From positions 7,451 through 71,450 of the forward strand of contig NZ_AYWX01000002.1 in the NCBI RefSeq assembly GCF_000502875.1: a DNA stretch of 64,000 nt, given 5' to 3'. The notes beneath the pieces were generated by a model that saw only the letters and a list, made by a program, of their open reading frames with translations, had not been told where the DNA came from and searched no databases. The position numbers and the translations under genes were made by a program. Shown here in pieces: positions 49,960 through 63,718 of this stretch (the stretch's first letter is position 1; each line of letters begins with the position of its first letter). This DNA is from Mesorhizobium sp. L2C084A000 (lineage in GTDB: Bacteria > Pseudomonadota > Alphaproteobacteria > Rhizobiales > Rhizobiaceae).

Positions 49960-50085
49960 CGCAGTTTCAGCCGCCTCGCGGCTGACTTCTGGCGTTTGAT
50001 TACCGCTGGCGCTTTGCGCCGGCGAGCACACGGCAACTCGACGTCGAGAGGCTCGCCGTCGATCGAGATCGCAAAGGGCTTGAGA

Positions 50086-51528
50086 GTGAGTATCGATTTC
50101 AGTCATTCCATTTCACGCCGCAGGTTTGTCCTCGCGGCGGCGGGCGTTGCGGCGGCCACCGTAGTGCGCCCCGTATCGTCGATGGCATCCGCCGTCGATG
50201 AGCGCCGCATAAGGATGGCGCCGGGCCAGGCCATGTTCACCGGCGCTAGCGGTCCGCTTACGCCTGTCTGGACCTATGATGGGACGGTCCCAGGCCCGGT
50301 GCTGCGCTTACGCCAAGGCCAGCCCGCCCGTATCGTCGTCGAGAACGGATTGAACGAGGACACGACAGTCCACTGGCATGGCATCCGCCTGCAAAACGCC
50401 ATGGACGGCGTGCCCGGCCTGACACAGCCGCCGATCAAGCCGGGGACAGATTGCGTCTATGAATTCACGCCGCCCGACGCCGGCACCTTCTGGTACCATC
50501 CGCATGCCAACAGCCTCGTGCAGCTCGGCCGCGGGCTGGCCGGCGTCCTCGTTGTCGAGGAGACCGAACCTGTCGCCGTCGACCGCGACCTCCTGTGGTT
50601 GCTGCAGGACTGGCGGCTTGCCGACGACGGGCAGATGGCCCTCGGCTTCGGCAGCGCGATGGACGCGGCGATGTCCGGCCGCGTCGGCAACGTCGTCACC
50701 ATCAACGGCACGGCGCCGGCCGACCAGAGCGCAAGGGCGGGCGAACGCGTCAGGCTGCGGCTGGCCAATGCCTCGCTCGCCCGCATCATGGCGTTGCGCT
50801 TCGAAGGCCACCGCCCGGTCGTCGTGGCGATCGACGGCCAGCCCTGTGATCCGCACGAACCGGATGACGGCCGTCTTGTTCTGGCACCCGCCATGCGCAT
50901 CGATGTCATGATCGACACGCAGGGCGACCCGGGCAAGCGTTACGCGGTGATCGACGACTTCTATGACGGTCTCGCCTATACGCTGACCACGCTTGCCTAT
51001 GACAGCGCATCGCCGCTTCGGACCCATCCTCTCGACACGCCGCTTGGCCTGCCGCGCAACCCGTTGCAGCAACCCGATCTCGCAAGCGCCGAACGTCAGG
51101 AGATCGTCCTGCAGGGCGGCATGATGGGTGGCGGCAAGCTCGCCGGCGTCGGCGGCATGATGGGCATGGCGACACCCGGCATGAAGGGTGGCGCGGCCTG
51201 GGCGATCAACGGCATGTCGATGACCGGTGACGGCCACGCCGGCATGGCGCCGCAGTTCACCTTGCCGCGCGGCGCAACCTGTCATCTCACCATGCGCAAC
51301 GAAACCGCCTGGTGGCACCCGATGCACATCCACGGCTTCAGCATGCTGGTGCTTGCGCGCAACGGTTCGCCGGTGACGCACCGGCAATGGCAGGACACGG
51401 TGCTGCTCGCCCCCAAGGACACGATCGAATGCGCTTTCGTCGCCGACAATCCAGGCGACTGGATGCTGCACTGCCATGTCGCCGACCACCAGATGGCCGG
51501 CCTCATGACGGTGTTTCGAGTGACCTGA
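50086..51528 (+). CDS. Multicopper oxidase with twin-arginine signal
   Basis: This 480-residue protein has a Tat signal (SRRRFVLAAAGVAAA) and three cupredoxin domains. Copper ligands are clear: HWHG, WYHPH, HPMHIHG and the C-terminal HCHVADHQMAG motif with the type 1 Cys. A Met/Gly-rich segment (about GGMMGMATPGMKGG) before the last domain is like that of CueO and PcoA, which oxidise Cu(I) in the periplasm. The GTG start gives a normal Tat leader; an open frame of 30 codons upstream is not needed. It sits between a Cys/Met-rich protein and a DUF411 protein. Confidence 0.92.
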   Translation: MSIDFSHSISRRRFVLAAAGVAAATVVRPVSSMASAVDERRIRMAPGQAMFTGASGPLTPVWTYDGTVPGPVLRLRQGQPARIVVENGLNEDTTVHWHGIRLQNAMDGVPGLTQPPIKPGTDCVYEFTPPDAGTFWYHPHANSLVQLGRGLAGVLVVEETEPVAVDRDLLWLLQDWRLADDGQMALGFGSAMDAAMSGRVGNVVTINGTAPADQSARAGERVRLRLANASLARIMALRFEGHRPVVVAIDGQPCDPHEPDDGRLVLAPAMRIDVMIDTQGDPGKRYAVIDDFYDGLAYTLTTLAYDSASPLRTHPLDTPLGLPRNPLQQPDLASAERQEIVLQGGMMGGGKLAGVGGMMGMATPGMKGGAAWAINGMSMTGDGHAGMAPQFTLPRGATCHLTMRNETAWWHPMHIHGFSMLVLARNGSPVTHRQWQDTVLLAPKDTIECAFVADNPGDWMLHCHVADHQMAGLMTVFRVT

Positions 51529-51569
51529 TTTTCTCGTCAAACAACGTCAAGACAACAAGGAGAACTGCG

Positions 51570-52010
51570 ATGAAACTGACTTACTCCCTCGCCGCCTTAG
51601 CGGTCGCGATCGCCATGCCGCTGCCAGCTGTCGCGGCGACCATCAACGCGGTGATGTACAAGAACCCGCAATGCAGCTGCTGCGAATCCTATGCCAACTA
51701 TCTGGAACACAACGGCTTCAAGGTCGACATCAAGCCGGTCAACAACCTGTCCCAGATCAGCAGCGATGCCGGCGTGCCGGCCGACCTCGAAGGCTGCCAC
51801 ACGCTGATGGTCGACGGCTATGTCGTCGATGGCTTGGTGCCGGTCGATATCGTCAAGAAACTGCTGACGGAGCGGCCCGCCATCACCGGCATCACGCTAG
51901 CCGGCATGCCGACCGGCGCTCCCGGCATGGGTGGCGAGAAGGCCGGCCCGTTCATCGTCTACGCCTTCACCAAGGACGGCAAGGCGCCCACCGTCTACGC
52001 GACGGACTGA
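51570..52010 (+). CDS. DUF411 family protein
   Basis: This 146-residue protein has a signal peptide ending AVAA and the DUF411 motif NPQCSCCESYANYLEHNGF, with a thioredoxin-like beta-alpha-beta layout and a later GCHTLMVDGYVVDGLVPVD. DUF411 proteins are found next to copper resistance genes and bind metal in the periplasm. AAGGAG precedes the ATG. It lies 41 bases after the multicopper oxidase gene. Confidence 0.92.
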   Translation: MKLTYSLAALAVAIAMPLPAVAATINAVMYKNPQCSCCESYANYLEHNGFKVDIKPVNNLSQISSDAGVPADLEGCHTLMVDGYVVDGLVPVDIVKKLLTERPAITGITLAGMPTGAPGMGGEKAGPFIVYAFTKDGKAPTVYATD

Positions 52011-52195
52011 AAGGCAACCGCGATGTCTGCCGATATGTCGGATTGCCCTGCCCGAACCTGGCTCGCCATGATGTTCCGGTCCTTCGCACGGCCTCGTGTC
52101 CTGCTTTTGCGCCATTTCGCATACAAGGACATGAGTTTGTGCTAATATACAATGGCCATGCACCTTCGTGCGTGACCAACCAATGGGAGGATGCA

Positions 52196-52618
52196 ATGAA
52201 AACCATAAATCGCAGGTCTGCAATTGCTCTCGGTGTGACGGCCGCCGCGATTACGCCTCTGTTCACCCTGGCGGCATCCGCGAAGGTCAAGAAATACGGC
52301 CCGAAGGAAGGCAAGGAGATTGCGCCCGGTGTAAGGGTGGTGGAGGTCGGCACCGGCGACTCCGACATCGCCGCTTACAAGAGCATCGCGATCGTCGATG
52401 TGGTGTTTCAGCCCGGAGCGCACGCTTCCGCGATGATGATGGACAACGACATGGTATGCACCATCACTTCAGGCGCGTTCACCATCAAGAAGGCAGACAA
52501 GGAATTCAAGCTCAAGACGGGTGACATGTACACCTGCGCCAAGGGCAAGACCGACGAGGCGACGAATACAAGCAAAGAGGTCGGCGTGCATCGTATCGCC
52601 GTCCTGATACCTGCGTAG
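52196..52618 (+). CDS. Exported cupin-like protein
   Basis: This 140-residue protein has a basic leader with NRRSAIALGV and a hydrophobic stretch ending ASA, then a single small beta barrel with VVFQPGAHASAMMMDNDMVC and GDMYTCAKGKTD segments resembling cupin strands. The usual cupin His ligands are largely missing. GGGAGG precedes the ATG. A strong hairpin follows the stop. Membership of the copper-type module is inferred from position only. Confidence 0.6.
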   Translation: MKTINRRSAIALGVTAAAITPLFTLAASAKVKKYGPKEGKEIAPGVRVVEVGTGDSDIAAYKSIAIVDVVFQPGAHASAMMMDNDMVCTITSGAFTIKKADKEFKLKTGDMYTCAKGKTDEATNTSKEVGVHRIAVLIPA

Positions 52619-52723: not shown

Positions 52724-53506
52724 CTACGCCATTTCGGGGCGTTTTGAACCCTCGCGGATGGCCTTGTGCACGCCGCGCTGCAGATCCATGAATGCAGGGC
52801 TTTCCATCACCTCTTCGCGGCGCGGGCGCTCGATATCGACGTTGAAGGTCTGGGTGATGCGGCCCGGGCCGATGCCCATGACGACGATGCGGTCCGACAG
52901 ATAGACGGCCTCCTCCACATCATGGGTGACAAACAGGACGGTCAACCTGTGTTCCTCCCAGATCTGGGTGAGCAGTTCCTGCATCTGGTGCCGGGTCAAG
53001 GCATCGAGCGCGCCGAAGGGCTCGTCCATCAACAGCATCTTGGGCCGGTAGGAAAGCGCGCGCGCAATGGCGACGCGCTGTTTCATGCCGCCCGAGAGTT
53101 CGGCCGGGTAGCGGTCGGCGCTGTCGGACAGCTTGACGAGTTCGAGATGCTCCAGCGCGATCCTGCGGCAGGTCGGGCGATCGTAGCCGGCGGCCTTGAG
53201 GGCAAACTCGATGTTCTGCCGCGCCGTCAGCCAGGGAAGCAGCGTGTAGGACTGGAAGACGACGCCACGGTCGAGACCCGGCTGCAGGATCGGCGCGCCG
53301 TCGATGCTGAGATCGCCCGCGTCGAAGTCCTGCAGTCCGGCAACGATCGACAGCAGCGTGCTCTTGCCGCAGCCCGACGTACCGACCAGGGACACAAACT
53401 CGTTGTCGGCAAGATCGAGGTTGATATCGCGCAGCACTTCCGTGCGCCGTTCGCCCGTGCCGAAGCTCTTGCGGAGGCCGGCGATCCGCAATTTGGGGAA
53501 ACTCAT
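52724..53506 (-). CDS. Nitrate/taurine-type ABC transporter ATPase (TauB/SsuB-like)
   Basis: This 260-residue ATPase has Walker A GTSGCGKST, signature LSGGMKQR and Walker B MLLMDEPFGALDALTR, the classical form of the nitrate/sulfonate/taurine class. It is the third gene of a three-gene importer operon, 10 bases behind the permease. An upstream 20-bp motif shared with the HisD/HisC-like genes links this importer to that catabolic set. Confidence 0.93.
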   Translation of the reverse strand: MSFPKLRIAGLRKSFGTGERRTEVLRDINLDLADNEFVSLVGTSGCGKSTLLSIVAGLQDFDAGDLSIDGAPILQPGLDRGVVFQSYTLLPWLTARQNIEFALKAAGYDRPTCRRIALEHLELVKLSDSADRYPAELSGGMKQRVAIARALSYRPKMLLMDEPFGALDALTRHQMQELLTQIWEEHRLTVLFVTHDVEEAVYLSDRIVVMGIGPGRITQTFNVDIERPRREEVMESPAFMDLQRGVHKAIREGSKRPEMA

Positions 53507-53516
53507 CGGCTGGACC

Positions 53517-54368
53517 TCATTGCGAGCGGCCCTCTTGCTTGAACAGCACCTTCTCCAGCGCCTTCATCACCTGGTCGGTGATGAGGCCAAGCAGGCCAAG
53601 CAGCAGGATGTAGCCGATGATCGTGTTGGTCTGGAAATAGCGCTGCGACACGGTGATGCGATAGCCGAGCCCCGAAGTCGCGGCGACAAGTTCGGCCAGC
53701 ACCAGCCAGGTCCATGCCCAGCCCAGGCTGATGCGCAGCGTATCCCAGATACCCGGCAAGGCGCTGGGGACGACGATGCGCGTCAGGATCTTGCGATCCG
53801 GCAGGCCGAGTGTGCGCCCAAGGCCGATGAAATCGGTGGGAACCCGTTTGACGTTGTCCATGATCATAAGGACCTGCTGGAAGAAGGTGCCGATGAAGAT
53901 GATCAGGAACTTCTGCGAATCTCCGGTGCCGGCCCAAAGAATGGAGAGCGGCACGAAAGCGACGACCGGCATGTAGCGGATGAAATCAACCAGCGGCTCG
54001 ATGGCCGCTTCCCAAGAACGGAAACTGCCAATCAGAACGCCGATCGGTATCGACAGTACCGAGGCGATGAGGAAGCCGATGGAGATGCGATACATCGAGG
54101 CTTTGAGGTCCAGCCACAACGTGCCGTCGGCAGCGAGCTTGGCGATCTGCGTCGCGACGCTGCCCGGCGAAGGCAGGAAGATCGGCTTTACCAACCCCAG
54201 TCCGGTCGCCGCCCACCAGGCAAGGCCCAGCCCAACGAACACGGCCACCGCGATGATCAGAAAGCGCGACCTGGCGATGGGCACGCCGATCCCGGAGGAT
54301 CGGCGGCGCCTCGCCTGTTTCGCGATCGGTCCTGGCGCCGGTCGCTCCCCGGGCATCTGTGTCACCAC
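53517..54368 (-). CDS. Nitrate/taurine-type ABC transporter permease (TauC/SsuC-like)
   Basis: This 283-residue inner-membrane protein has six predicted helices and the class-specific segments FLPSPGSVATQIAKLA, PLVDFIRYMPVVAFVPLSI, and the docking loop RTLGLPDRKILTRIVVPSALP. It lies 16 bases behind the binding-protein gene and 10 before the ATPase gene. Its substrate is that of the binding protein. Confidence 0.93.
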   Translation of the reverse strand: MVTQMPGERPAPGPIAKQARRRRSSGIGVPIARSRFLIIAVAVFVGLGLAWWAATGLGLVKPIFLPSPGSVATQIAKLAADGTLWLDLKASMYRISIGFLIASVLSIPIGVLIGSFRSWEAAIEPLVDFIRYMPVVAFVPLSILWAGTGDSQKFLIIFIGTFFQQVLMIMDNVKRVPTDFIGLGRTLGLPDRKILTRIVVPSALPGIWDTLRISLGWAWTWLVLAELVAATSGLGYRITVSQRYFQTNTIIGYILLLGLLGLITDQVMKALEKVLFKQEGRSQ

Positions 54369-54384
54369 CGCGATCCGGCCTTGA

Positions 54385-55395
54385 TCATTCCGCCGCCTTG
54401 ACGAAGGACGGGTCGATCATCTGCTCCGGCGTCACATCGGCCTGCAGCAGCTTGGCGTTCTTGGCGGCGGCTTCGACATCGGCGAAGGTCTTGGTGGTGA
54501 AGTCGCCGGTGAGCGCCGTCTTGTTTTCGGCCAGCGAGTAGTAGCGCACGCCGTCAAAGGCGGTGTTGAGGTCCTTGACGTCCGAACCGACAGCCTTGGC
54601 GATGATGGCGCGGCCGCCGGGCGTATCAGCATTGTAGTCCTTGAGCGCTGCGTCCCAGCTCTTGATCATGGCCAGCACCTGGCCGGGCCGCGACTTGATC
54701 ACCTCGTCACGCACCACCAGCACGTCGCTGATCAGGCCGGGATCCTCGCCGGCGGTGAACAGAAGCTTGAGGTCCTTGTTCTGCGCCATGGCGACGGTGA
54801 GGTACGGTTCATAAGTCACCGCGACCGGCACCTGACCGGCGATCAAGGCGCTGCCGGCATCGGACGCCGGCATCGGGACCGGCTTCACATCGTCGATCGA
54901 CATGCCGTTCCTGGCGAGCGCGTATTTGAGCAGGATGTCGCTCGTCGTGCCTTCCTCGAAGGCGACCTGCTTGCCCTTAAGGTCCGCGATGGAGGTGACG
55001 TCCTTGCCGGCGATGATGGCGTCGGCGGTCATGGAGACGTCGAGCAGCAGCACGATCTTCACCGGCAGGCCGGCCGCAACCATGCCCATCGCCGTGTGGG
55101 TGGCGATGTTGGCGGCGTCGAGCTGGCCGCTTGCAAGTGCTGCATTGATGTCCTTGTCCTCGGCGAAGTTGACGATCTGGACGTCGCTCAGCCCGTTTGT
55201 CTTGAACAGACCCTTGGCCTCGGCGACATGCCACTGGCCATAGCCGAGCCAGGGCTCGATGCCGATCTTGAACGCTCCTGCCTCGGGCGTGGTGGGAATG
55301 GCCGCATCGGCCGCGTAGGCTGCCGGGGCGGCGGCGAGTCCGATGGCGGCGGCCATCACGAGCGCGCGAAACTGTCCTGTTAGGTTACGCATCAT
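54385..55395 (-). CDS. Nitrate/taurine-type ABC transporter substrate-binding protein
   Basis: This 336-residue protein has a signal peptide ending AAYAAD and the TauA/SsuA/NMT1-like two-lobe pattern (FKIGIEPWLGYGQWHVAEAKGLF, AALASGQLDAANIATHTAMG, KGKQVAFEEGTTSDILLKYAL). Such proteins bind sulfonates, nitrate, pyrimidine precursors or other small polar compounds, so class does not fix the ligand. A copy of the TGTATATRC-type motif lies about 170 bases upstream of its start. It opens the importer operon. Confidence 0.92.
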   Translation of the reverse strand: MMRNLTGQFRALVMAAAIGLAAAPAAYAADAAIPTTPEAGAFKIGIEPWLGYGQWHVAEAKGLFKTNGLSDVQIVNFAEDKDINAALASGQLDAANIATHTAMGMVAAGLPVKIVLLLDVSMTADAIIAGKDVTSIADLKGKQVAFEEGTTSDILLKYALARNGMSIDDVKPVPMPASDAGSALIAGQVPVAVTYEPYLTVAMAQNKDLKLLFTAGEDPGLISDVLVVRDEVIKSRPGQVLAMIKSWDAALKDYNADTPGGRAIIAKAVGSDVKDLNTAFDGVRYYSLAENKTALTGDFTTKTFADVEAAAKNAKLLQADVTPEQMIDPSFVKAAE

Positions 55396-55561
55396 CTTTG
55401 TTCCCCTTGATGATCAGACCGCTTTTTCTAGCTGAGGTAGCCGGTCTGGTGAGACTGCGGGTTTCTGCTCTTGCGGCACTGTGCCTCGGCGTCTTACCTG
55501 CCACTTCATGGTGAAGTGCGAGGATATTTCAGCGTCAGCGGGAGCGGATGTCAAGGCTAAA

Positions 55562-55581
55562 ATACATACATGCATATACAA
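55562..55581. promoter_or_regulatory. Regulon motif copy A, upstream of the importer operon
   Basis: On the minus strand the site reads TTGTATATGCATGTATGTAT. It is made of two 10-base units of the type WTGTATRTRC in direct order, and also has partial dyad symmetry. Close copies occur in three other intergenic spaces of the cluster and none was noticed elsewhere in the window. The bases match the kind of A/T-rich TGTATATACA operator described for HutC-type repressors. Confidence 0.75.
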
Positions 55582-55592
55582 GTTGGAAAGAC

Positions 55593-56891
55593 TCAATTTC
55601 CCACCTTGGCCGGATCGATCCGGTCGAGGAAACCTGTCACCCGATCGGCTCCGGCAACGGGTTCGCTGCCGACCATGACCGCGACTGAGAAGGCAATGAG
55701 GGAGGAGACCGGCGTGTGGCTGCGCGCGCCAGCCCGCAGGTTCATAACCAGCGTCGGCGACAGGAAAAGACCGGCTCGCAGCACCGCGCGCCAATCGGCC
55801 GGCAGCATGCCGCGCCGTTTGAGCTCCAGCAGCAATGGCCGCCACAGCGCTGTCGCCTTGACCTCCAGCAGGTCGCGGCGGACGAGGCTCAGGTCCCAGT
55901 CCGTGTCGACATGGAGCAGATTTCCGTCCAGCCGCGCCTGGGCGCGAAAAGCCTCTGTCGCGGTCGCCGGATCATAGAGCCAGAACGGGTGGGCGAAGAT
56001 GTTGTGGAACGTCGCCTTCACCTCGGCCAGCAGCGTCGGGATGTGCGAGCCGGCAAAGGCGGGATCGAAGAAGGACAGCTCCGCCCTCCCCGCCTTCGCC
56101 GTGTACCAGACATTGGCGTTGTGGGCGTCGCCATGCGCGACCACGCCGCCGGCATCGGCAAGGCGGTCGGGCCGTAAGCGCACAGCCGCGGCATCGAAAA
56201 GCTCACCGATGCTGTCGGTGTACTGCTGGTCGTTGATGACGAATTTCAGCCGGGAAAACCGATCCCAATCCAGCTCGGCACCGGGAAAGACGAACGGCTT
56301 GCCGACATAGAAATCGGCCAGCCTTCCGCCTGGTGACAAGCGTGTCTCGGCATCGATCAGCCGCTCATGAAACAGCCTGTGGATCGGCTCCGCCGCCACG
56401 TCCTCGACAGTGACGGGATGCAGCGTCTCGAGATAGACCTTGAGCAGCCTGGCCGACAGGTCGCGCTCGGCAAGAACGGCTTCTTGCCGCTTGCAGGCAT
56501 CGTCCTGCCCATCCAGCGCGAACAGCACATCCGAAAATCTTGGATCCGTGCGGCGGCGATAGACAAGGATCTGCTCGCCTGGTTGGGCAGACATATGCAC
56601 GGGTTGGTCGACCGGCAGGCCGGCGCGCGACAGAATCTCGGCGCGGTAATACTCGCCCGTCATCGCCTCTTCCCGCTCCTCCTGATGGAACTTGAAGAAG
56701 TAGGCCTTGCCATCGTCCTCGAAGAAGCCGTTCAACGAATTGAGGCTGTACTTGTCGAAGTTGATGCGCACATTGCGGGGGGTCATCGCGAACAGGTCGC
56801 CCAGCAATGCCGCCAGCGCGCTTTGTGCTTCGGCAACATCATGCTGCGCGAGTGCCCGGATCCGCGCCGTGCGGCTCAGTGCCGGCGTCAT
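55593..56891 (-). CDS. Phosphotransferase (APH/choline-kinase fold) protein
   Basis: This 432-residue protein has the small-molecule kinase fold. The N-lobe Lys is probably K67 (YFFKFHQEE), the catalytic loop is VAHGDAHNANVWY with D255 near residues 252-263, and the metal-binding DFG-type motif reads FDPAF (276-278). It should phosphorylate a small alcohol or amine in the cytosol. The ATG at 56891 begins the family-like region; the open frame upstream runs into the operator. It has its own motif copy directly upstream and is therefore a separate unit in the same regulon. It could instead be a non-catalytic or a different phosphotransferase. Confidence 0.8.
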   Translation of the reverse strand: MTPALSRTARIRALAQHDVAEAQSALAALLGDLFAMTPRNVRINFDKYSLNSLNGFFEDDGKAYFFKFHQEEREEAMTGEYYRAEILSRAGLPVDQPVHMSAQPGEQILVYRRRTDPRFSDVLFALDGQDDACKRQEAVLAERDLSARLLKVYLETLHPVTVEDVAAEPIHRLFHERLIDAETRLSPGGRLADFYVGKPFVFPGAELDWDRFSRLKFVINDQQYTDSIGELFDAAAVRLRPDRLADAGGVVAHGDAHNANVWYTAKAGRAELSFFDPAFAGSHIPTLLAEVKATFHNIFAHPFWLYDPATATEAFRAQARLDGNLLHVDTDWDLSLVRRDLLEVKATALWRPLLLELKRRGMLPADWRAVLRAGLFLSPTLVMNLRAGARSHTPVSSLIAFSVAVMVGSEPVAGADRVTGFLDRIDPAKVGN

Positions 56892-56939
56892 CTGTCGCTC
56901 CTTCCAGCCAGTTCGTTCGCCGAGGGCGAAACCGTTTTC

Positions 56940-56959
56940 ATCGATACATGTATATACAT
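56940..56959. promoter_or_regulatory. Regulon motif copy B, upstream of the kinase gene
   Basis: On the minus strand the site reads ATGTATATACATGTATCGAT. It contains the perfect 12-base palindrome ATGTATATACAT. It lies 48 bases before the kinase start, between that gene and the HutC-like regulator gene. Confidence 0.8.
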
Positions 56960-57000
56960 TGGCAGCGGGGCCGCTCCGACTTGCATTCGACCTGCTTCCG

Positions 57001-57732
57001 TTAGCTGCTTTTTGAAGGTGAATAGCGGCTGCCGAGCGAGTAGCGGCTGCCGGCATAAGTCAGCTTGCTGATCGTCGCCACCACCGCGCCTGTCCATGTC
57101 CGGCGGTGCAGGAAGAGGCAGCAGGCGCCGACATCGATGCCCAGATGCCGCGCCGTCTCGGCATCCGCCGGGATGGCGGAAATGATATGCTCGACCTCGG
57201 TCACCGGGGTTTTCTGCATGAGGTAGTCATAGGTCGCCGTCTTCGAAAAATCCTGCTTGTCATAGTCGGGGATGAGGCTCGGATTGACGAAGCGCTCTTC
57301 CAGTTGCACCGGCAAATCATTCTCGAAATTGACGACGACAGAATGATAGATCGGGACGCGCTTTGCGAACTCGAACGACAGCGCCAGCTCCTTTGTCGGC
57401 ATGATGGTTTCGAGGACGAGGACTTCGGAACGATGCCTGTTGCCGCGCTCGACGATCTCGGCTGCGATGTTGTTGATCTCGATCAGTGTCGATTGCGGCC
57501 GCGGTGGCGCGATGAAAGTTCCCACACCTTGCAGACGGATCAGGAACCCGGCCGAGGTCAACTCTCTGAGCGCCCGGTGAACCGTCATCCGCGACACGCC
57601 GAGTGAAGCCACCAACTCATTCTCGGACGGCAGCTTGCGATCCTTGCCCCACCGGCCCGTTCCGATGTTGGCCAGGATGTAGTCCTTCACCTTCTCGTAG
57701 AGAGGGCTGGCCGTGTCAGGCAAAGTGACCAT
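57001..57732 (-). CDS. GntR-family repressor of the HutC type
   Basis: This 243-residue regulator has a GntR winged helix at about residues 8-73 (SPLYEKVKDYILANI, KLPSENELVASLGVSRMTVH) and a UTRA effector domain. The effector domain resembles HutC, the histidine-utilisation repressor that senses urocanate, in YHSVVVNFENDLPVQLEERFVNP and HRRTWTGAVVATISKLTYAGSRYSLGSRY. The ATG at 57732 has AAAGGA eight bases upstream; a GTG 36 bases earlier overlapping the dehydrogenase stop is possible. It is the third gene of the HisD-like operon, and four copies of a HutC-like motif lie in the cluster. I infer that it represses all of them. Its effector may be an imidazole or related acid. Confidence 0.9.
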   Translation of the reverse strand: MVTLPDTASPLYEKVKDYILANIGTGRWGKDRKLPSENELVASLGVSRMTVHRALRELTSAGFLIRLQGVGTFIAPPRPQSTLIEINNIAAEIVERGNRHRSEVLVLETIMPTKELALSFEFAKRVPIYHSVVVNFENDLPVQLEERFVNPSLIPDYDKQDFSKTATYDYLMQKTPVTEVEHIISAIPADAETARHLGIDVGACCLFLHRRTWTGAVVATISKLTYAGSRYSLGSRYSPSKSS

Positions 57733-57764
57733 TTCCAAAGTCCTTTCCGGCGATTCATCGGAAA

Positions 57765-58790
57765 TCACGACCGCTCGACAGGTTGCCGCATGCGGATGAT
57801 TGTTTTCAAGCCGTCGCTGTGTCCCGCCAACAGCCGCTCATAGGCAGCCGGAATGTCATCCAGGCCAATCTCCTGGTCGATCAGCGCCAACAGCGGTTCG
57901 CTGAGCTCACCTAGCATCCGCACGGCCTCGGGCAGCTCATCGGCAAAGGCGTGGCATCCCAGCAACCCGATTTCGCGTTCGACCAGCGTATTGGGATCAA
58001 TGTTGAGGCGGCCGTGAAAGATGCCCACCATGGCGATCGTGCCGCCGGGATCGAGAACGCCAAGCAACTGGTTGAGCGCCGCGACGCTGCCGGTCGCCTC
58101 AATGGCCGCGAGCAGCGGGGCATTGGCGGTTGCGGCGGCAACGGCATCCCGGTTCAGATCGACCATCGTGGCACCCGTCACCCGCGCCACCCGGGCGCAG
58201 CGGCTCTGGTTGCGGTCGGCGACGAGCACGATGCCGGCGAAGGTCCGCGACAGCAGCAGCGCGGCAAGACCGCCGATGGGCCCGCAGCCGACGACCAGCA
58301 CCGCGCCTGCCGTTTTCGGCAGCCGCCGCACCGCATGCAACGCCACCGCCAGCGGCTCGGCCATCGCCGCGACCCGCTCGTCGAGCCCGGCATCGATGAT
58401 ATGCAAGAGCCGTGCGGGCAGCACCGCCTGTTCGGCAAACCCACCGTCGCAGATCTCCCCCACAAAGCCCAGCGACGCACAGAGATGCCGCCTGCCGGCA
58501 TGACATTGCGCGCAGTCTCCGCACCAGAACCGTGAATCGGCAACCACCCTGTCACCGACGGCGACGCTATCAACGCCTGCGCCGATGGCGGTCACCGTGC
58601 CGGCCAGTTCATGGCCGGCCGTCGACGGCGACCGGCTTATCCATTGCCCCGTGCGGAAATTGTGCAGATCAGAACCACAGATGCCGGCGGCATCGACCCT
58701 CAGCTTCACCCAGCCCGGATCCGGCGCGCCTGGCGGAGCGATGTCCTCGACACGCAGGTCACCAGGTTGATAAAGTCGAGCAGCCCTCAT
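57765..58790 (-). CDS. Zinc-dependent alcohol dehydrogenase (MDR family)
   Basis: This 341-residue dehydrogenase has the catalytic zinc Cys in GICGSDLH, the GHELAGTV motif, the four-cysteine structural zinc lobe (CGDCAQCHAGRRHLC) and the Rossmann motif VVGCGPIGGLAALL. It oxidises a secondary alcohol with NAD(P). It starts 16 bases after the HisD-like gene stop. Together with the SDR across the operator it gives the cluster two separate alcohol dehydrogenases. Confidence 0.92.
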   Translation of the reverse strand: MRAARLYQPGDLRVEDIAPPGAPDPGWVKLRVDAAGICGSDLHNFRTGQWISRSPSTAGHELAGTVTAIGAGVDSVAVGDRVVADSRFWCGDCAQCHAGRRHLCASLGFVGEICDGGFAEQAVLPARLLHIIDAGLDERVAAMAEPLAVALHAVRRLPKTAGAVLVVGCGPIGGLAALLLSRTFAGIVLVADRNQSRCARVARVTGATMVDLNRDAVAAATANAPLLAAIEATGSVAALNQLLGVLDPGGTIAMVGIFHGRLNIDPNTLVEREIGLLGCHAFADELPEAVRMLGELSEPLLALIDQEIGLDDIPAAYERLLAGHSDGLKTIIRMRQPVERS

Positions 58791-58805
58791 CGCGATCGTT
58801 TCCGC

Positions 58806-60128
58806 TCAGCCGGCGAGATAGCGGTCGCGGATTTCCGAGACCGCGTTCTCGTGCGAACTGAAGCCCTCATAGCGGGCAAGCCTGCGGGCATGCAGAGCGA
58901 GTTCCGGATAGGCCGCCGAGGTGACATAGCCGACCGACGAGCGCTTGACGAAATCCGTCACCGAAAGCGGGCCGTAGGTCCGCGCCCACCGGCTGGTCGG
59001 CAGCACTGCATTGGGTCCAAGGACGAAGTTGGCAAGGGTCACCGGCGTATGCGGTCCCATGAGGATTTCGGCCGCCTCGGTGATGCGTCCGAGATGGGCG
59101 AACGGCTCCGTCGACAGGATCTCGAGATGTTCGGGCGCATAGTCGTTGATGAAGCGGTAGCTGTCTTCCAGCGATGCGGTCAGCACGATGCCGCCGCGCT
59201 TGCCGGTCAGCACCGCGCGCGAAAACTCCACACGCTGCTCGGTCATCCGCGACCAATGCTCGGGAAGTGCGGCGAGTGCTGCTTCTGCGATCTTGCGGCT
59301 GTGCGTCACCAGATAGGCCGAGGAATCTGGCCCGTGCTCGGCTTCGATCAACAGGTCGAGCGCGGCAAGCCCGCCGTCGACGCTGTCATCGGCAAAGATA
59401 ATCGCTTCCGACGGGCCCGCCGGAAGGCCTGTGTTGATGACCGATGACAGCACGCTCTTGGCCGCCACCACCCACGGGCTGCCGGGACCGACGATCTTGA
59501 GTGCGGGCTTCACCGTCTCGGTGCCGTAAGCGACGGCGGCAACTGCCTGGGCGCCGCCGCATTTGTAGACCGTGCCCACGCCGGCGAGACGCGCGGCGAC
59601 GAGCGTTGCCGCGTCCACCGAACCATCCGATGTCGGCGGCGTCACGATGGCAATCTGCGGCACGCCGGCAATCACCGCCGGCACCGACGTCATCATCGTC
59701 ACCGACGGGAAAGCGCCCTTGCCGCGCGGCACGTAGAGCGCAACGGATGCGATGGGCGTGTACCTGTCCCCGGCATAGGCGCCCGGCCGGACTTCCTTGA
59801 GCCACATCGTCTCCGGCTTCTGCTCCTCATGGAAGCGCCTGATGTTGTCGATGCCGAACTGGATGCTCTCGACGACGTCCCTTTCCACCTTGTCGAACGC
59901 CGCATCGAACTCGGCTTCCGACACCTGCAGTTCGCCCTCGGCGACATTGGCCTTGTCGAGTTCCCCGGCGAAGCGGATCAAGGCGGCGTCGCCTTCGTCC
60001 TTGACGGCCTGGATGATCGGCCGGACCTTCTCAACGAAGACCGTCAGATCGGCCTCGGCGCGCTTCAGCAGACTGGCGCGCTGGTCGGCATCGATGGATG
60101 ACAGATCGTGGAAGCTGATGTCGGACAT
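58806..60128 (-). CDS. HisD-family dehydrogenase with altered zinc site
   Basis: This 440-residue protein is a full-length relative of histidinol dehydrogenase, which makes two successive NAD-dependent oxidations of an amino alcohol to an acid. The general bases E333 and H334 (APEHL) are kept. By alignment to E. coli HisD, zinc ligands Q259, H262, D360 and H419 correspond to E262, H265, N367 and H426, so Gln and Asp have become Glu and Asn. Substrate-contacting H367 of HisD is A374 here (GPNAVLP for GxNHVLP). It is therefore not the biosynthetic enzyme. The sulfopropanediol dehydrogenase HpsN is another HisD paralog. The ATG gives the usual length. It opens the operon HisD-like, alcohol dehydrogenase, HutC-like. 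Confidence 0.88.
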   Translation of the reverse strand: MSDISFHDLSSIDADQRASLLKRAEADLTVFVEKVRPIIQAVKDEGDAALIRFAGELDKANVAEGELQVSEAEFDAAFDKVERDVVESIQFGIDNIRRFHEEQKPETMWLKEVRPGAYAGDRYTPIASVALYVPRGKGAFPSVTMMTSVPAVIAGVPQIAIVTPPTSDGSVDAATLVAARLAGVGTVYKCGGAQAVAAVAYGTETVKPALKIVGPGSPWVVAAKSVLSSVINTGLPAGPSEAIIFADDSVDGGLAALDLLIEAEHGPDSSAYLVTHSRKIAEAALAALPEHWSRMTEQRVEFSRAVLTGKRGGIVLTASLEDSYRFINDYAPEHLEILSTEPFAHLGRITEAAEILMGPHTPVTLANFVLGPNAVLPTSRWARTYGPLSVTDFVKRSSVGYVTSAAYPELALHARRLARYEGFSSHENAVSEIRDRYLAG

Positions 60129-60252
60129 GATTGCTCGTCTCCTGGAACTCTTGGAACGCAATGACGGTTGGCCCGTGGATGGCCATAGTTCTGCGGGTCG
60201 ACAAGCCGACCGGGGCAAGGATCAAAGCCGTCGAGAGGCTTCACTCAGGCAA

Positions 60253-60272
60253 AAGTATATACATGTATGTAT
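60253..60272. promoter_or_regulatory. Regulon motif copy C, upstream of the HisD-like operon
   Basis: On the plus strand the site reads AAGTATATACATGTATGTAT, a close match to copies A and B. It lies 124 bases upstream of the HisD-like start, in the gap between that operon and the SDR gene that is transcribed towards it. Confidence 0.75.
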
Positions 60273-60335
60273 GATGGTCGCCAGCAATTTTTCCATCATC
60301 CTTCCCGTCGAAACTGCGGAGGCAAACCTGCCTCA

Positions 60336-61109
60336 TCAGATCGAGGCGAGAAAGCCGCCATCGACCGGAATGGACTGGCCGGTTATGTAGGCAGCCGCAT
60401 CCGAAGCGAGGAACACGGCGATGCCGTGCAAGTCGTGGAGATCACCGAAACGCCGCTGCGGGATCTTGGCCAGCATGGAGTGCTGCCATGCCTCGTCGCT
60501 GTAAAAAACGTCGGTCATCGCCGTCCTGAAATAGCCCGGCGCGATGGCGTTGACCCTTATGCCAAGCTCCGCCCACTCCGCCGCAAGGGCGCGGGTCATG
60601 CCGAGCAGGCCCGACTTCGACGAGCCATACGGCACCGCGGTGGGGATTCCGACTTCGGATGTCAGCGAGCACAGATTGATGATGGCACCAGGGCGTCCGG
60701 CGTCGCGCATCTGCCGCGCGGCGGCCTGGGCGCAGAAGAACGCTCCCTTGAGATTCGTGTCGACGATCCTGTCCCACAGCGCCTCGTCGACATCGAGCGA
60801 GGGCCGCACCTCCTCCACGCCGGCATTGTTGACGAGAATGTCGAGACCGCCAAGCAGGCTGGCAGCCTCTGCGGTTGCTGCCCGGCAGCGGCCGACATCG
60901 GTGACGTCGAGAGCGATGGCGTGCGCCACTCCGCCGGCGGCGCGGATGGCTGCCGTGGTGGCCTCCAGCGAGGCCAGGCTGCGCGCCGTGACCGCGACGT
61001 CTGCGCCGGCAGCACTCAGCGCCTCGGCGATGCTGCGCCCGATGCCCCGGCTTGCACCGGTGACAAGCGCCTTCCTGCCGGAGAGATCGAAGAGAGAAGC
61101 GTTGCGCAT
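60336..61109 (-). CDS. Short-chain dehydrogenase/reductase of the regulon
   Basis: This 257-residue classical SDR has TGASRGIGRS, the NNAG motif, the catalytic Ser in NLCSLTSEVG, YGSSK, and the C-terminal ITGQSIPVDGGFLASI. It probably oxidises a hydroxyl group of the imported compound or a later product. Its start is 58 bases from motif copy D, which it shares with the divergent aminotransferase gene. Its stop lies about 60 bases before motif copy C on the other side. Confidence 0.92.
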   Translation of the reverse strand: MRNASLFDLSGRKALVTGASRGIGRSIAEALSAAGADVAVTARSLASLEATTAAIRAAGGVAHAIALDVTDVGRCRAATAEAASLLGGLDILVNNAGVEEVRPSLDVDEALWDRIVDTNLKGAFFCAQAAARQMRDAGRPGAIINLCSLTSEVGIPTAVPYGSSKSGLLGMTRALAAEWAELGIRVNAIAPGYFRTAMTDVFYSDEAWQHSMLAKIPQRRFGDLHDLHGIAVFLASDAAAYITGQSIPVDGGFLASI

Positions 61110-61167
61110 GTGATCCTCCTGATCGGTGTCGGTTTCCGCTTCAGCGTCGAGACTATCAGATCAAGTT

Positions 61168-61187
61168 GCATATACAAGCATATACAA
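61168..61187. promoter_or_regulatory. Regulon motif copy D, divergent SDR/aminotransferase promoter
   Basis: On the minus strand the site reads TTGTATATGCTTGTATATGC, an exact direct repeat of the 10-base unit TTGTATATGC. This copy shows best that the motif is built from tandem units. It lies between the starts of the SDR and the HisC-like gene and can control both. Confidence 0.8.
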
Positions 61188-61239
61188 ACTGTTTGGGCTA
61201 CGGTACGGATGACGAAATCCACCGCAGAGGAGCCCGCCC

Positions 61240-62343
61240 TTGTCGAAAGCCTCGGATATGGTCCGTACCGAAGTCAACCGCCTGTCGCCCTACAATTCCG
61301 GGCTGACAATTGACGAGGTCATGGAGCGATACGCACCGGCCAGAATCGCCAAACTGTGCTCGAACGAAAACCCGCTCGGGCCCAGCCCGACCCTCGCCAC
61401 GACGATGCATGCCGGCTCCGAGATGTTCCGCCTCTATCCGGACCCTGCCGGGCGCAAGCTGCGCCAGGCGATCGGCGACAAATATGCCGTCACCGAGGAC
61501 CAGATTATCCTCGGCAACGGTTCCGAAGACCTTCTCTCCGTCATCAGCCGTGCCGTGTTGCGGCCGGGCGACGCGGTCGTCACGCTCTATCCGTCGTTTC
61601 CGCTGCATGAGGACTACGCGACGTTGATGGGCGCTACCGTCAAGCGCGTTGTCGTCAACGACGATCTGACCATTAATGTCGATGCGCTGGTCGAGGCGGC
61701 GCGCGAGCGGCCGCGCATGCTGCTGTTCTCGAACCCGATGAACCCGGTCGGCAGCTGGCTCTCCGGCGGCGATCTGTCGAGGGTTCTGGATGCGACGAGC
61801 GACGAGACGCTGATCGTCATCGACGAAGCCTATGCCGAATATGCCGAGGGCGACGACTATGCGTCGTCCCTGCCCTATCTCGAAAAGCTGGACCGGCCCT
61901 GGATCGTGCTGCGGACCTTTTCCAAGGCGTTCGGTCTGGCCGGATTGCGGATCGGCTTCGGCATCGTCGGTGACCCGGAGCTGCGCGCGCTGCTCGACCG
62001 CGTCCGCACGCCTTTCAACGCCAACGGCATGGCCCAAGCCGCCGCACTCGCGGCGCTGGCCGACGACGAACACCTCGCCAGGGTCGTCGCGCTGGCCAGG
62101 GCGGAGAGAAAACGCGTCGAGACTTTTCTGGCGAGCAAGGGCCTCGACGTCGCCGCCTCCAGGGGCAACTTCCTGTTCTTCAACTGCCGGCGAGATGCTT
62201 CCGTGTTCGTCGAAAGCCTGTTGCGGCAAGGCGTCATCGTCAAGCCGTGGAAGCAGCAGGGTTTTGACACCTATGTGCGCGTCAGCATCGGCTCGGCTGC
62301 GGAGAACGACCACTTCATGGCCGTTCTGTCGGAGCTGTTGTGA
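61240..62343 (+). CDS. HisC-like PLP aminotransferase
   Basis: This 367-residue protein is a class I/II aminotransferase of the histidinol-phosphate branch. Marks are the ENPLGPSP loop, GNGSEDLL, SNPMNPVGSWL, the DEAYAEYAEG aspartate segment and the PLP lysine in TFSKAFGLAGLRIGFG. The TTG start has AGGAG at eight bases; an ATG 18 bases later is a second choice. It is controlled by motif copy D. In the regulon it may deaminate or aminate the amino alcohol handled by the HisD-like enzyme. It is unlikely to be the biosynthetic HisC given its company. Confidence 0.9.
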   Translation: MSKASDMVRTEVNRLSPYNSGLTIDEVMERYAPARIAKLCSNENPLGPSPTLATTMHAGSEMFRLYPDPAGRKLRQAIGDKYAVTEDQIILGNGSEDLLSVISRAVLRPGDAVVTLYPSFPLHEDYATLMGATVKRVVVNDDLTINVDALVEAARERPRMLLFSNPMNPVGSWLSGGDLSRVLDATSDETLIVIDEAYAEYAEGDDYASSLPYLEKLDRPWIVLRTFSKAFGLAGLRIGFGIVGDPELRALLDRVRTPFNANGMAQAAALAALADDEHLARVVALARAERKRVETFLASKGLDVAASRGNFLFFNCRRDASVFVESLLRQGVIVKPWKQQGFDTYVRVSIGSAAENDHFMAVLSELL

Positions 62344-62970: not shown

Positions 62971-63654
62971 TCAAGCGGCGGTGCTGACCTGGCCCGGCTC
63001 GAGGATCGACTTGACCTTGCCGGCCACCGCGCGTCCCAGATCGGCGTTGTTTGCGGCGGTGAAATGAATTCCGTCGACACCGTCCGTGGTGAGGTAATCG
63101 CCGGCATTGAGGAAGTCGATCTTCATGAAATCCGCCATCGCCTTGTACTGCCTGGCCAGATCCCTGGATTTTTCGTGCCCGCCGCCGAACATGCCCTCGA
63201 ACCACGGATCGGGCATCGGGGTCAGCGGCGGCGGCGCAATGACCAGCGCCTTCGGCGCCGGATAAGGCGTGCCGATGCCGCCGGCACTGGTCAGGATCTG
63301 CCCGACCAGTTTCGCCATTCCATTGGCGATCTCATAAGGCGTCCGGCGGAAATAAGACTTGGTGTCGTTGGTGCCGAGCATGACAATGACCAGGTCCAGC
63401 GGCAGATGGCTGGCGATGGCCGAGGGCAGATAATTGGCCCCGTTCAGGCGCGGATCGTTGGGGTCGTCGAGACAGGTGGTGCGCGCGCTCAGGCCTTCTT
63501 CGATGATATGGTAGCCCGCCCCCAGCGCCGCCGACATCACACCGGTCCAGCGCTGGTCATAGGGGTAGCGGTAGGTCGGCGACCCCTCCTTGACCGGAAC
63601 CCAGCCCCAGGTCAGCGAGTCGCCGTAGCACATGATGTTTTTTGGCGGTGACAT
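62971..63654 (-). CDS. SGNH/GDSL family hydrolase
   Basis: This 227-residue protein has the four SGNH blocks: GDSLTWGW with the nucleophile Ser, the Gly of EEGLSART, the Asn of MLGTNDTK, and the DGIHFT catalytic Asp-His pair. No signal peptide is seen, so it acts in the cytosol as an esterase, probably on acetylated sugars. GGAG precedes the ATG. It follows the sugar permease gene by 64 bases, consistent with de-esterification of the imported compound. Confidence 0.92.
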   Translation of the reverse strand: MSPPKNIMCYGDSLTWGWVPVKEGSPTYRYPYDQRWTGVMSAALGAGYHIIEEGLSARTTCLDDPNDPRLNGANYLPSAIASHLPLDLVIVMLGTNDTKSYFRRTPYEIANGMAKLVGQILTSAGGIGTPYPAPKALVIAPPPLTPMPDPWFEGMFGGGHEKSRDLARQYKAMADFMKIDFLNAGDYLTTDGVDGIHFTAANNADLGRAVAGKVKSILEPGQVSTAA

Positions 63655-63718
63655 CCATGTTTCTCCATCTGTTTGCAATTGTCTGAACGCCGGCGCACTT
63701 GCTTTTCGCCGTCTTAAG

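Follow-up and report, generated by a model that had tools for sequence, protein, structure and literature searches.

A predicted HutC2-controlled gene cluster of Mesorhizobium and its kinase-fold protein KIN, a candidate functional counterpart of HisB

IGPD (HisB), which acts on imidazoleglycerol phosphate, is a known herbicide target, and to our knowledge no replacement for it has been described. None was found in the titles and abstract openings of CC-licensed PMC papers, and one may be described elsewhere. ATP-dependent NAD(P)H-hydrate dehydratase, a small-molecule dehydratase with a kinase fold, spends ATP on its reaction. According to excerpts of PMC9486802, LanM carries out an elimination within a kinase active site, and CaoK, an APH-type kinase, phosphorylates for a dehydration that involves a separate lyase. 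Excerpts of PMC12977541 give TGTA-N2-TACA as the HutC operator, and those of PMC11382572 give a histidine at position 126 of CpHpsN as the hallmark of HpsN. Here we present a gene cluster from a window of 64,000 nucleotides (G000:C2:7451-71450) in the 6.65-Mb genome of Mesorhizobium sp. L2C084A000. It encodes an ABC importer, a kinase-fold protein (KIN), a HutC paralog (HutC2), two dehydrogenases of the SDR and Zn-dependent types, an altered HisD paralog (HisD2) and a HisC-like aminotransferase.

Judging from the sequences, the cluster may be repressed by HutC2, import an imidazole with a short polyol side chain and convert it to histidine for the histidine utilisation (hut) operon. This reading is put forward tentatively, its chances being close to even. 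The best guess for the substrate would be imidazoleglycerol or else a closely related stereoisomer or analogue. The reading is based on cluster-specific operator boxes, on TGTATATACA, shared only with the hut operon, and on hut genes in the vicinity of KIN (16 of 76 loci). It is further based on KIN genes in his operons of genomes where PF00475 (the IGPD domain) was not found, on HisIE-KIN and HAD-KIN fusions and on an IGPD paralog beside a KIN-less HisD2; and on invariant kinase residues, the changed zinc site of HisD2, a concerted expression drop in a Sinorhizobium meliloti tolC mutant and the LanM and CaoK precedents. An initial annotation had already proposed a HutC-like regulon for uptake and stepwise oxidation of an amino alcohol or polyol, possibly histidinol or another imidazole feeding hut: the regulon, the conserved gene content and the link to histidine catabolism were supported, histidinol as the substrate was not. 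The most telling gene, KIN, with relatives in his operons of genomes in which HisB was not found, was missed there.

Proposed pathway and the place of KIN in histidine biosynthesis

The ABC importer would take up the imidazole polyol, and the SDR and the Zn-dehydrogenase might handle its stereoisomers or oxidation states. HisD2 would oxidise the terminal CH2OH to a carboxylate. KIN would then phosphorylate the hydroxyl next to the imidazole and eliminate phosphate, an ATP-dependent dehydration yielding imidazolepyruvate, which the HisC-like aminotransferase would turn into histidine for degradation by the genome's hut operon. Alternatively, KIN might act first to give imidazoleacetol, followed by the aminotransferase and then HisD2. 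The order HisD2, KIN, aminotransferase is preferred because it explains the altered HisD and because a general aminotransferase would suffice where the cluster lacks a HisC-like gene.

KIN of the window matched nothing in Pfam or NCBIfam. Its AF2 model displayed a pLDDT of 95.3, and its fold matches belonged to the APH family. Residues K67, E80, H253-G254-D255, N260 and D276 were invariant across 74 KIN sequences; we take them to be the Lys/Glu pair, the HGDxxxxN motif and the DFG-like aspartate of kinases. Both blocks of the APH-type kinase motif were present in 314 of 321 homologues. Half of the KIN members (37 of 74) matched PF01636 at E values up to 1 (best 6.8e-06), the window KIN being without a match, and a PDB sequence search with a KIN profile returned a single match (E 0.74), taken as chance. 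PF00475 was not matched by KIN, which may be at most a functional counterpart of IGPD. The best 120 of 1316 KIN matches included one fusion to HisIE and one (P0139) to a HAD phosphatase; a search with the HisIE-KIN fusion gave no second such fusion among the best 120 of 647 matches. KIN relatives P0196 and P0222, one of them named from Cyanothece, branched outside the other KIN groups except the long-branched L117.

Relatives of KIN were detected in four of 379 genomes sampled from the phylum of locus L082, presumably the Patescibacteria, and in three of them they lay amid his genes. Gene orders were HisG-HisC-HisD-HAD-x-KIN-HisH-HisA in L082, HisG-HisD-HAD-KIN-HisC-HisA-HisH in L116 and HisG-HisD-KIN-HisH-HisA-HisF-HisIE-HAD in L117. 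HisG, HisD, HisH and HisA exceeded their NCBIfam cut-offs in all three loci. HisF and HisIE were additionally matched in L117 (hisF above cut-off), and the two HisC proteins of L082 and L116 scored 258.4 and 246.8 bits, under the cut-off of 276.55. Between L082, L116 and the HAD-KIN fusion, the HAD parts shared 36-37 % identity, that of L117 being less related (24-25 %). Leaving hisC aside, KIN of L117 occupied the hisB slot of the E. coli his order. None of the four KIN-bearing genomes of this phylum yielded a PF00475 match, and 13 of 14 controls did.

Among ten alphaproteobacterial genomes with KIN, including that of the window (G000), IGPD was present in eight and absent from G1007 and G905. 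These two genomes of about 2 Mb displayed a HisD2-KIN pair without importer or other cluster genes (L142 9087-11852 and L143 2928-5499, respectively), and no other his gene was recognised in the 19.9 and 14.3 kb compared around the pair. In G000 itself, an N inside a short tandem duplication interrupted hisB (C4, ~68324-68831; L149). This was read as an assembly join, and a broken hisB was rejected.

The reverse situation was encountered in Monoglobus pectinilyticus (L152 9001-12482), where a HisD2-type gene was followed by a PF00475 protein (104.9 bits, annotated as hypothetical) and a HAD protein. The stretch also included a hydro-lyase of the fumarase C-terminus type, and the record gave no KIN match. 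IGPD missing and KIN present in Patescibacteria, KIN missing and an IGPD relative present beside HisD2 in Monoglobus, together form a mirror-image swap, and the Monoglobus locus is possibly a clostridial version of the pathway. KIN would be the equivalent of HisB/IGPD on a kinase fold, and some Patescibacteria would rely on it for IGPD's own step on imidazoleglycerol phosphate. The simplest reading would be that both share a reaction type, the loss of water from an imidazolyl diol, in KIN through phosphorylation and elimination. It is quite possible, with a chance slightly below that of the pathway itself, that KIN defines a new class of APH-fold, ATP-dependent imidazolyl-diol dehydratases, which replaces HisB/IGPD in some Patescibacteria and, together with a remodelled HisD, was taken into a widespread pathway under HutC2 control from imidazole polyols to histidine.

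HisD2, operator boxes and the link to hut

HisD2 scored well above the TIGR00069 cut-off (422.1 against 243.8 bits). Aligned to E. coli HisD, it retained His262, His419, Glu326, His327 and Glu414, and it displayed Glu for Gln259, Asn for Asp360, Ala for His367 and Phe for Leu138. Gln259 and Asp360, two of the four zinc-ligand positions compared (Gln259, His262, Asp360 and His419), correspond to zinc ligands of HisD and HpsN in excerpts of PMC11382572 and PMC5585171. The signature (Ala, once Cys, at 367), with both zinc ligands changed, was found in 84 of 86 HisD sequences, which came from 85 of 88 KIN loci. These loci represented 86 distinct places, since L041 coincides with L130 and L073 with L144, and the count left out L145 (HisD match 61 %, 371 aa, at the locus edge). 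The two exceptions were the HisD of L082, which is biosynthetic, and an additional copy of the canonical type in L080. No HisD was counted in three loci: L071 had a short HisD match at its end, and L014 and L081 had none, with little DNA upstream of KIN.

In the tree, HisD2 grouped with members from Monoglobus and Microbacterium, apart from HpsN-type and canonical HisD, some deep forks being weak. On sequence grounds HisD2 is a third HisD subtype. Histidinol, suggested as substrate in the initial annotation, thus appeared doubtful; the genome also carries a separate HisD that scored better than HisD2. Two arguments from single residues were rejected: Glu414 as proof of an imidazole substrate, because an HpsN-type protein has it too, and R133/K135 as substrate-binding, because the matching Medicago residues bind the NAD pyrophosphate (excerpts of PMC5585171). 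A further HisD-family protein, from a Sulfitobacter pontiacus plasmid (L153 5926-7257), displayed Met at the position of the HpsN histidine and was neither HpsN nor HisD2; its gene adjoined an SDR gene and a TAXI-TRAP importer.

As described initially, the cluster genes lay in transcription units each preceded by one of four 20-bp boxes (Table 1). The 10-mer WTGTATRTRC, with at most one mismatch, had 16 occurrences in the window where 4.98 were expected, and none of 100 shuffles reached 16. The 20-mer WTGTATATRCWTGTATRTRY was derived from these four boxes and, when up to three mismatches were allowed, gave six matches in the whole genome, namely the four sites, two of them repeated on the opposite strand with a shift of two bases; its reversed control gave three. 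The genome scan confined the tandem 20-mer to the cluster promoters, and together with the shuffles it ruled out a chance motif. A looser 10-mer, TRTATATRYR, was not enriched genome-wide (16 matches, control 17), so that the evidence consists of the tandem 20-mer and its positions and not of the half-site alone. Box 2 contained an exact TGTATATACA, and boxes 1, 3 and 4 were near matches to TGTA-N2-TACA. Exact TGTATATACA occurred in only two places of the genome, the KIN promoter and C3:6144, directly ahead of hutI in the hut operon. A matrix built from the four sites located boxes in many Rhizobiales loci, at the promoters of the importer, HisD or SDR/aminotransferase genes, even where the importer belonged to another family; 11 of 76 loci had no site of at least 11 bits.

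The HutC-like nature attributed to the regulator held, HutC2 exceeding the TIGR02018 cut-off (Table 1). It was 30 % identical to the HutC of the genome's own hut operon (C3:4014-4691, 290.5 bits). HutC2 as the HutC of this genome was rejected, the better-scoring copy accompanying the hut operon on C3. Repression of the cluster by HutC2 is predicted from these boxes. Public annotation calls the HutC2 paralog of two loci (L112 13166-13897 and L155 12391-13122) hutC or histidine utilization repressor, and the enzyme hisD, names that are probably misleading.

In the hut operon of the window's genome, hutF, hutI, hutH, hutG and hutU all exceeded NCBIfam cut-offs. In 16 loci, KIN had structural hut genes (at least 41 % identical to these) no more than about 10 kb away; eight of these loci form one Pleomorphomonas-like lineage; an initial tally of 18 was reduced by L027 and L033, which displayed only a HutH-like protein of 31-32 % identity. 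In Tolumonas, parts of hutU and the beginning of hutI came after KIN. Boxes also occurred at hut promoters in some relatives, as in the Rhizobiales genome of L043, with strong sites at the cluster promoter (23 bits) and the hutI/hutF promoter (25 bits). The suspected link to the hut pathway was borne out in this way, and from the hut genes near KIN the catabolic route probably ends in histidine. Excerpts of PMC2912261 report that a tolC mutant of S. meliloti expressed seven genes of SMa0387-SMa0402 at levels reduced 8- to 24-fold, with a joint fall of ntrB, ntrC, glnK and hutU, which fits a nitrogen source; KIN did not occur in the passages covered.

Composition and distribution of the cluster

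The survey comprised 76 loci, 75 fetched from named genomes with a KIN query and the copy on S. meliloti 1021 pSymA, all of which contain KIN by construction. Neighbourhoods were compared by BLAST and family matches on open frames, the genes being uncurated. HisD was found in 72 loci, the SDR in 65 and the Zn-dehydrogenase in 63, all three together in 56; with the Mesorhizobium loci L012-L033 set aside, HisD was found in 51 of 54. An NMT1-type binding protein occurred in 30 loci and an FMN lactate-dehydrogenase-like enzyme in 14. The gene content was thus kept together in relatives, as had been anticipated, and the steadiest partners were KIN and HisD2, usually with the SDR and the Zn-dehydrogenase. 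Importers were interchangeable, being of the NMT1 type in Mesorhizobium, Serratia and Klebsiella and of the PotD type in Sinorhizobium and Phyllobacterium.

Table 1. Cluster genes and operator boxes in the window
Feature	Position	Strand	Evidence
ABC importer ATPase, nitrate/sulfonate/taurine class	52724..53506	-	NCBIfam ntrCD 278 bits, under 291.8 cut-off; PF00005
ABC importer permease	53517..54368	-	PF00528
ABC solute-binding protein, NMT1/SsuA type	54385..55395	-	PF09084; SsuA_fam 148.6 bits, under 163.5 cut-off
Box 1, upstream of importer operon	55562..55581	-	20-mer, 0 mismatches
KIN, APH-fold kinase-like protein, 432 aa	55593..56891	-	Fold matches, kinase residues; no Pfam/NCBIfam match
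Box 2, upstream of KIN	56940..56959	-	20-mer, 2 mismatches; exact TGTATATACA
HutC2, GntR/UTRA regulator	57001..57732	-	TIGR02018 273.6 bits, cut-off 220
Zn-dependent medium-chain dehydrogenase	57765..58790	-	PF08240, PF00107
HisD2, HisD-family dehydrogenase, altered zinc site	58806..60128	-	PF00815; E259, N360, A367, F138 (E. coli numbering)
Box 3, upstream of HisD2 - Zn-dehydrogenase - HutC2	60253..60272	+	20-mer, 1 mismatch
SDR-family dehydrogenase	60336..61109	-	PF13561
Box 4, between divergent SDR and aminotransferase genes	61168..61187	-	20-mer, 0 mismatches
HisC-like aminotransferase, divergent from SDR gene	61240..62343	+	PRK05166 586.5 bits (cut-off 540), hisC 309 (276.55)

The aminotransferase exceeded both NCBIfam equivalog cut-offs (Table 1). 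At positions which we take to form the HisC substrate site, it retained Y20, Y55, N157 and R335 and displayed K for R322 and E for D85. Just beyond the cluster lay a GDSL-type hydrolase (PF13472, window 62971-63678); at the other side (window 49996-52618) lay genes whose products, judged by eye, resemble a multicopper oxidase, a small metal-binding protein and a cupin-like protein.

The closest named relatives of the window KIN gene were from Mesorhizobium. Within a sample of 61 genomes, KIN was patchy, being matched in nine, all among the 37 searched from the window's genus (its own genome included); one of the nine displayed only a fragment with an internal stop. The cluster occurred in alpha- and gammaproteobacteria and in Microbacterium, the gene set being found in Serratia and Microbacterium and on plasmids of Klebsiella and Pantoea. 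KIN was matched in 107 of 72,556 plasmid records and HisD, at 60 % identity or more, in 105. Neither KIN nor a Monoglobus-type HisD was found in the viral contigs searched; 11 phage records matched HisD, all below 60 % identity (best 36.9 % among the five of 11 matches listed). Beside the cassette of two Klebsiella plasmids (L110 16642-23345 and L156 22343-27724) lay genes for a glutamine-synthetase-like protein, an amino acid permease and an N-formylglutamate amidohydrolase, in L110 also a class III aminotransferase; these neighbours presumably resemble a histamine/imidazole-acetate island. In the titles and abstract openings of the CC-licensed PMC papers the cluster was nowhere described as a pathway, and a description elsewhere is possible. 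Under the S. meliloti gene names, two expression studies were found and otherwise nothing on the cluster among the best 15 of 33 titles.

Alternative readings and comparison with known systems

Several observations weighed against the proposed pathway. The regulator was present in 40 and the aminotransferase in 35 of the 76 loci, no separate lyase gene was seen, and the importer class gives no pointer to imidazoles. Residues Y20, Y55 and R335 of HisC, retained in the aminotransferase, would suit phosphorylated substrates too. For the three Patescibacteria whose his operons include KIN, the PF00475 negative comes without reported genome completeness. The fourth relative (a 660-residue frame in G328) stood outside a his context, its genome being also without PF00475, and KIN of L117 was only 20-26 % identical to the others, on a very long branch. 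G1007 and G905 carry the HisD2-KIN pair, and PF00475 was not found there. The metal motif of the Monoglobus IGPD paralog was partly degenerate, and the swap was a single case among the few KIN-less HisD records examined.

Three other readings were considered. KIN could be a plain kinase making imidazoleglycerol phosphate, which host HisB, HisC and a phosphatase would convert to histidinol and a HisD enzyme to histidine. The APH fold with its intact motifs, the HisC-like aminotransferase and IGPD in eight of the ten alphaproteobacterial KIN genomes agree with this, but no PF00475 match was obtained from G1007, from G905 or from the three Patescibacteria whose KIN genes lie in his operons, and the SDR and Zn-dehydrogenase would be left unexplained; we consider it unlikely. 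Utilisation of histidinol or D-histidinol, with import, oxidation by HisD2 to histidine and degradation by hut while the other enzymes handle side products, seemed quite unlikely. The HisD score, the retained catalytic Glu326 and His327 and the hut linkage speak for it; the replacement of Gln259 and Asp360 in 84 of 86 HisD sequences and the better-scoring second HisD speak against it, and KIN, both other dehydrogenases and the aminotransferase would have no role. Finally, the substrate might not be an imidazole at all, the cluster being a module for a diol resembling dihydroxypropanesulfonate (DHPS), made of a HisD-type enzyme, an SDR, a Zn-dehydrogenase and often an FMN hydroxy-acid dehydrogenase, next to hut genes only by coincidence. 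The same trio with an FMN enzyme in a DHPS-type cluster of Leisingera, the importer's relation to sulfonate, taurine and nitrate systems and the Glu414 common to HpsN are consistent with this. It appeared very improbable given KIN relatives in his operons and fused to HisIE, Phe at the diagnostic HpsN position, the proximity of hut genes in several lineages and the HutC-type regulator with its boxes. DHPS degradation as such was rejected on that residue and on the lack of any sulfonate gene among the ten window cluster proteins scanned.

Should KIN perform the IGPD step, histidine prototrophs may stand among the genomes now rated auxotrophic because they lack HisB. Dehydration of a small metabolite by a kinase-fold enzyme would then also be a role new to the APH fold. 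The cluster, which is present on pSymA of S. meliloti too, points to a new nutrient of rhizobia. Genes now annotated as hisD2, hisC3, hutC and 'hypothetical protein' are predicted to belong to one pathway for an imidazole compound.

Among described systems, DHPS catabolism by HpsN, HpsO and HpsP likewise combines a HisD-family enzyme, an SDR, a Zn-dehydrogenase and an importer (excerpts of PMC11131964 and PMC11382572), the Leisingera example also with an FMN hydroxy-acid oxidase. It differs from the window cluster in the HpsN histidine, present in the Leisingera control and replaced by Phe in HisD2, in the changed zinc ligands of HisD2 and in KIN, HutC2 and the hut linkage. The hut system under HutC shares a HutC-family regulator, TGTA-N2-TACA-type boxes (excerpts of PMC12977541) and, in relatives, adjacent hut genes; the window cluster has a separate paralog, HutC2, and tandem boxes, and contains no hut structural gene. 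NAD(P)H-hydrate dehydratase differs from the activity proposed for KIN in its ribokinase fold and its substrate. The APH-fold kinases PsiK, LxmK/CaoK and methylthioribose kinase were 8-13 % identical to KIN in sequence, and CaoK, unlike the proposed enzyme, acts on peptides with a separate lyase (excerpts of PMC9486802). HisB/IGPD resembles KIN in the proposed reaction type, in the operon slot taken by KIN in L117 and in the joining of HAD to KIN in P0139, as E. coli HisB joins a HAD phosphatase (as we take its N-terminal part to be) to IGPD; unlike IGPD, KIN belongs to an unrelated family without a PF00475 match and would use ATP.

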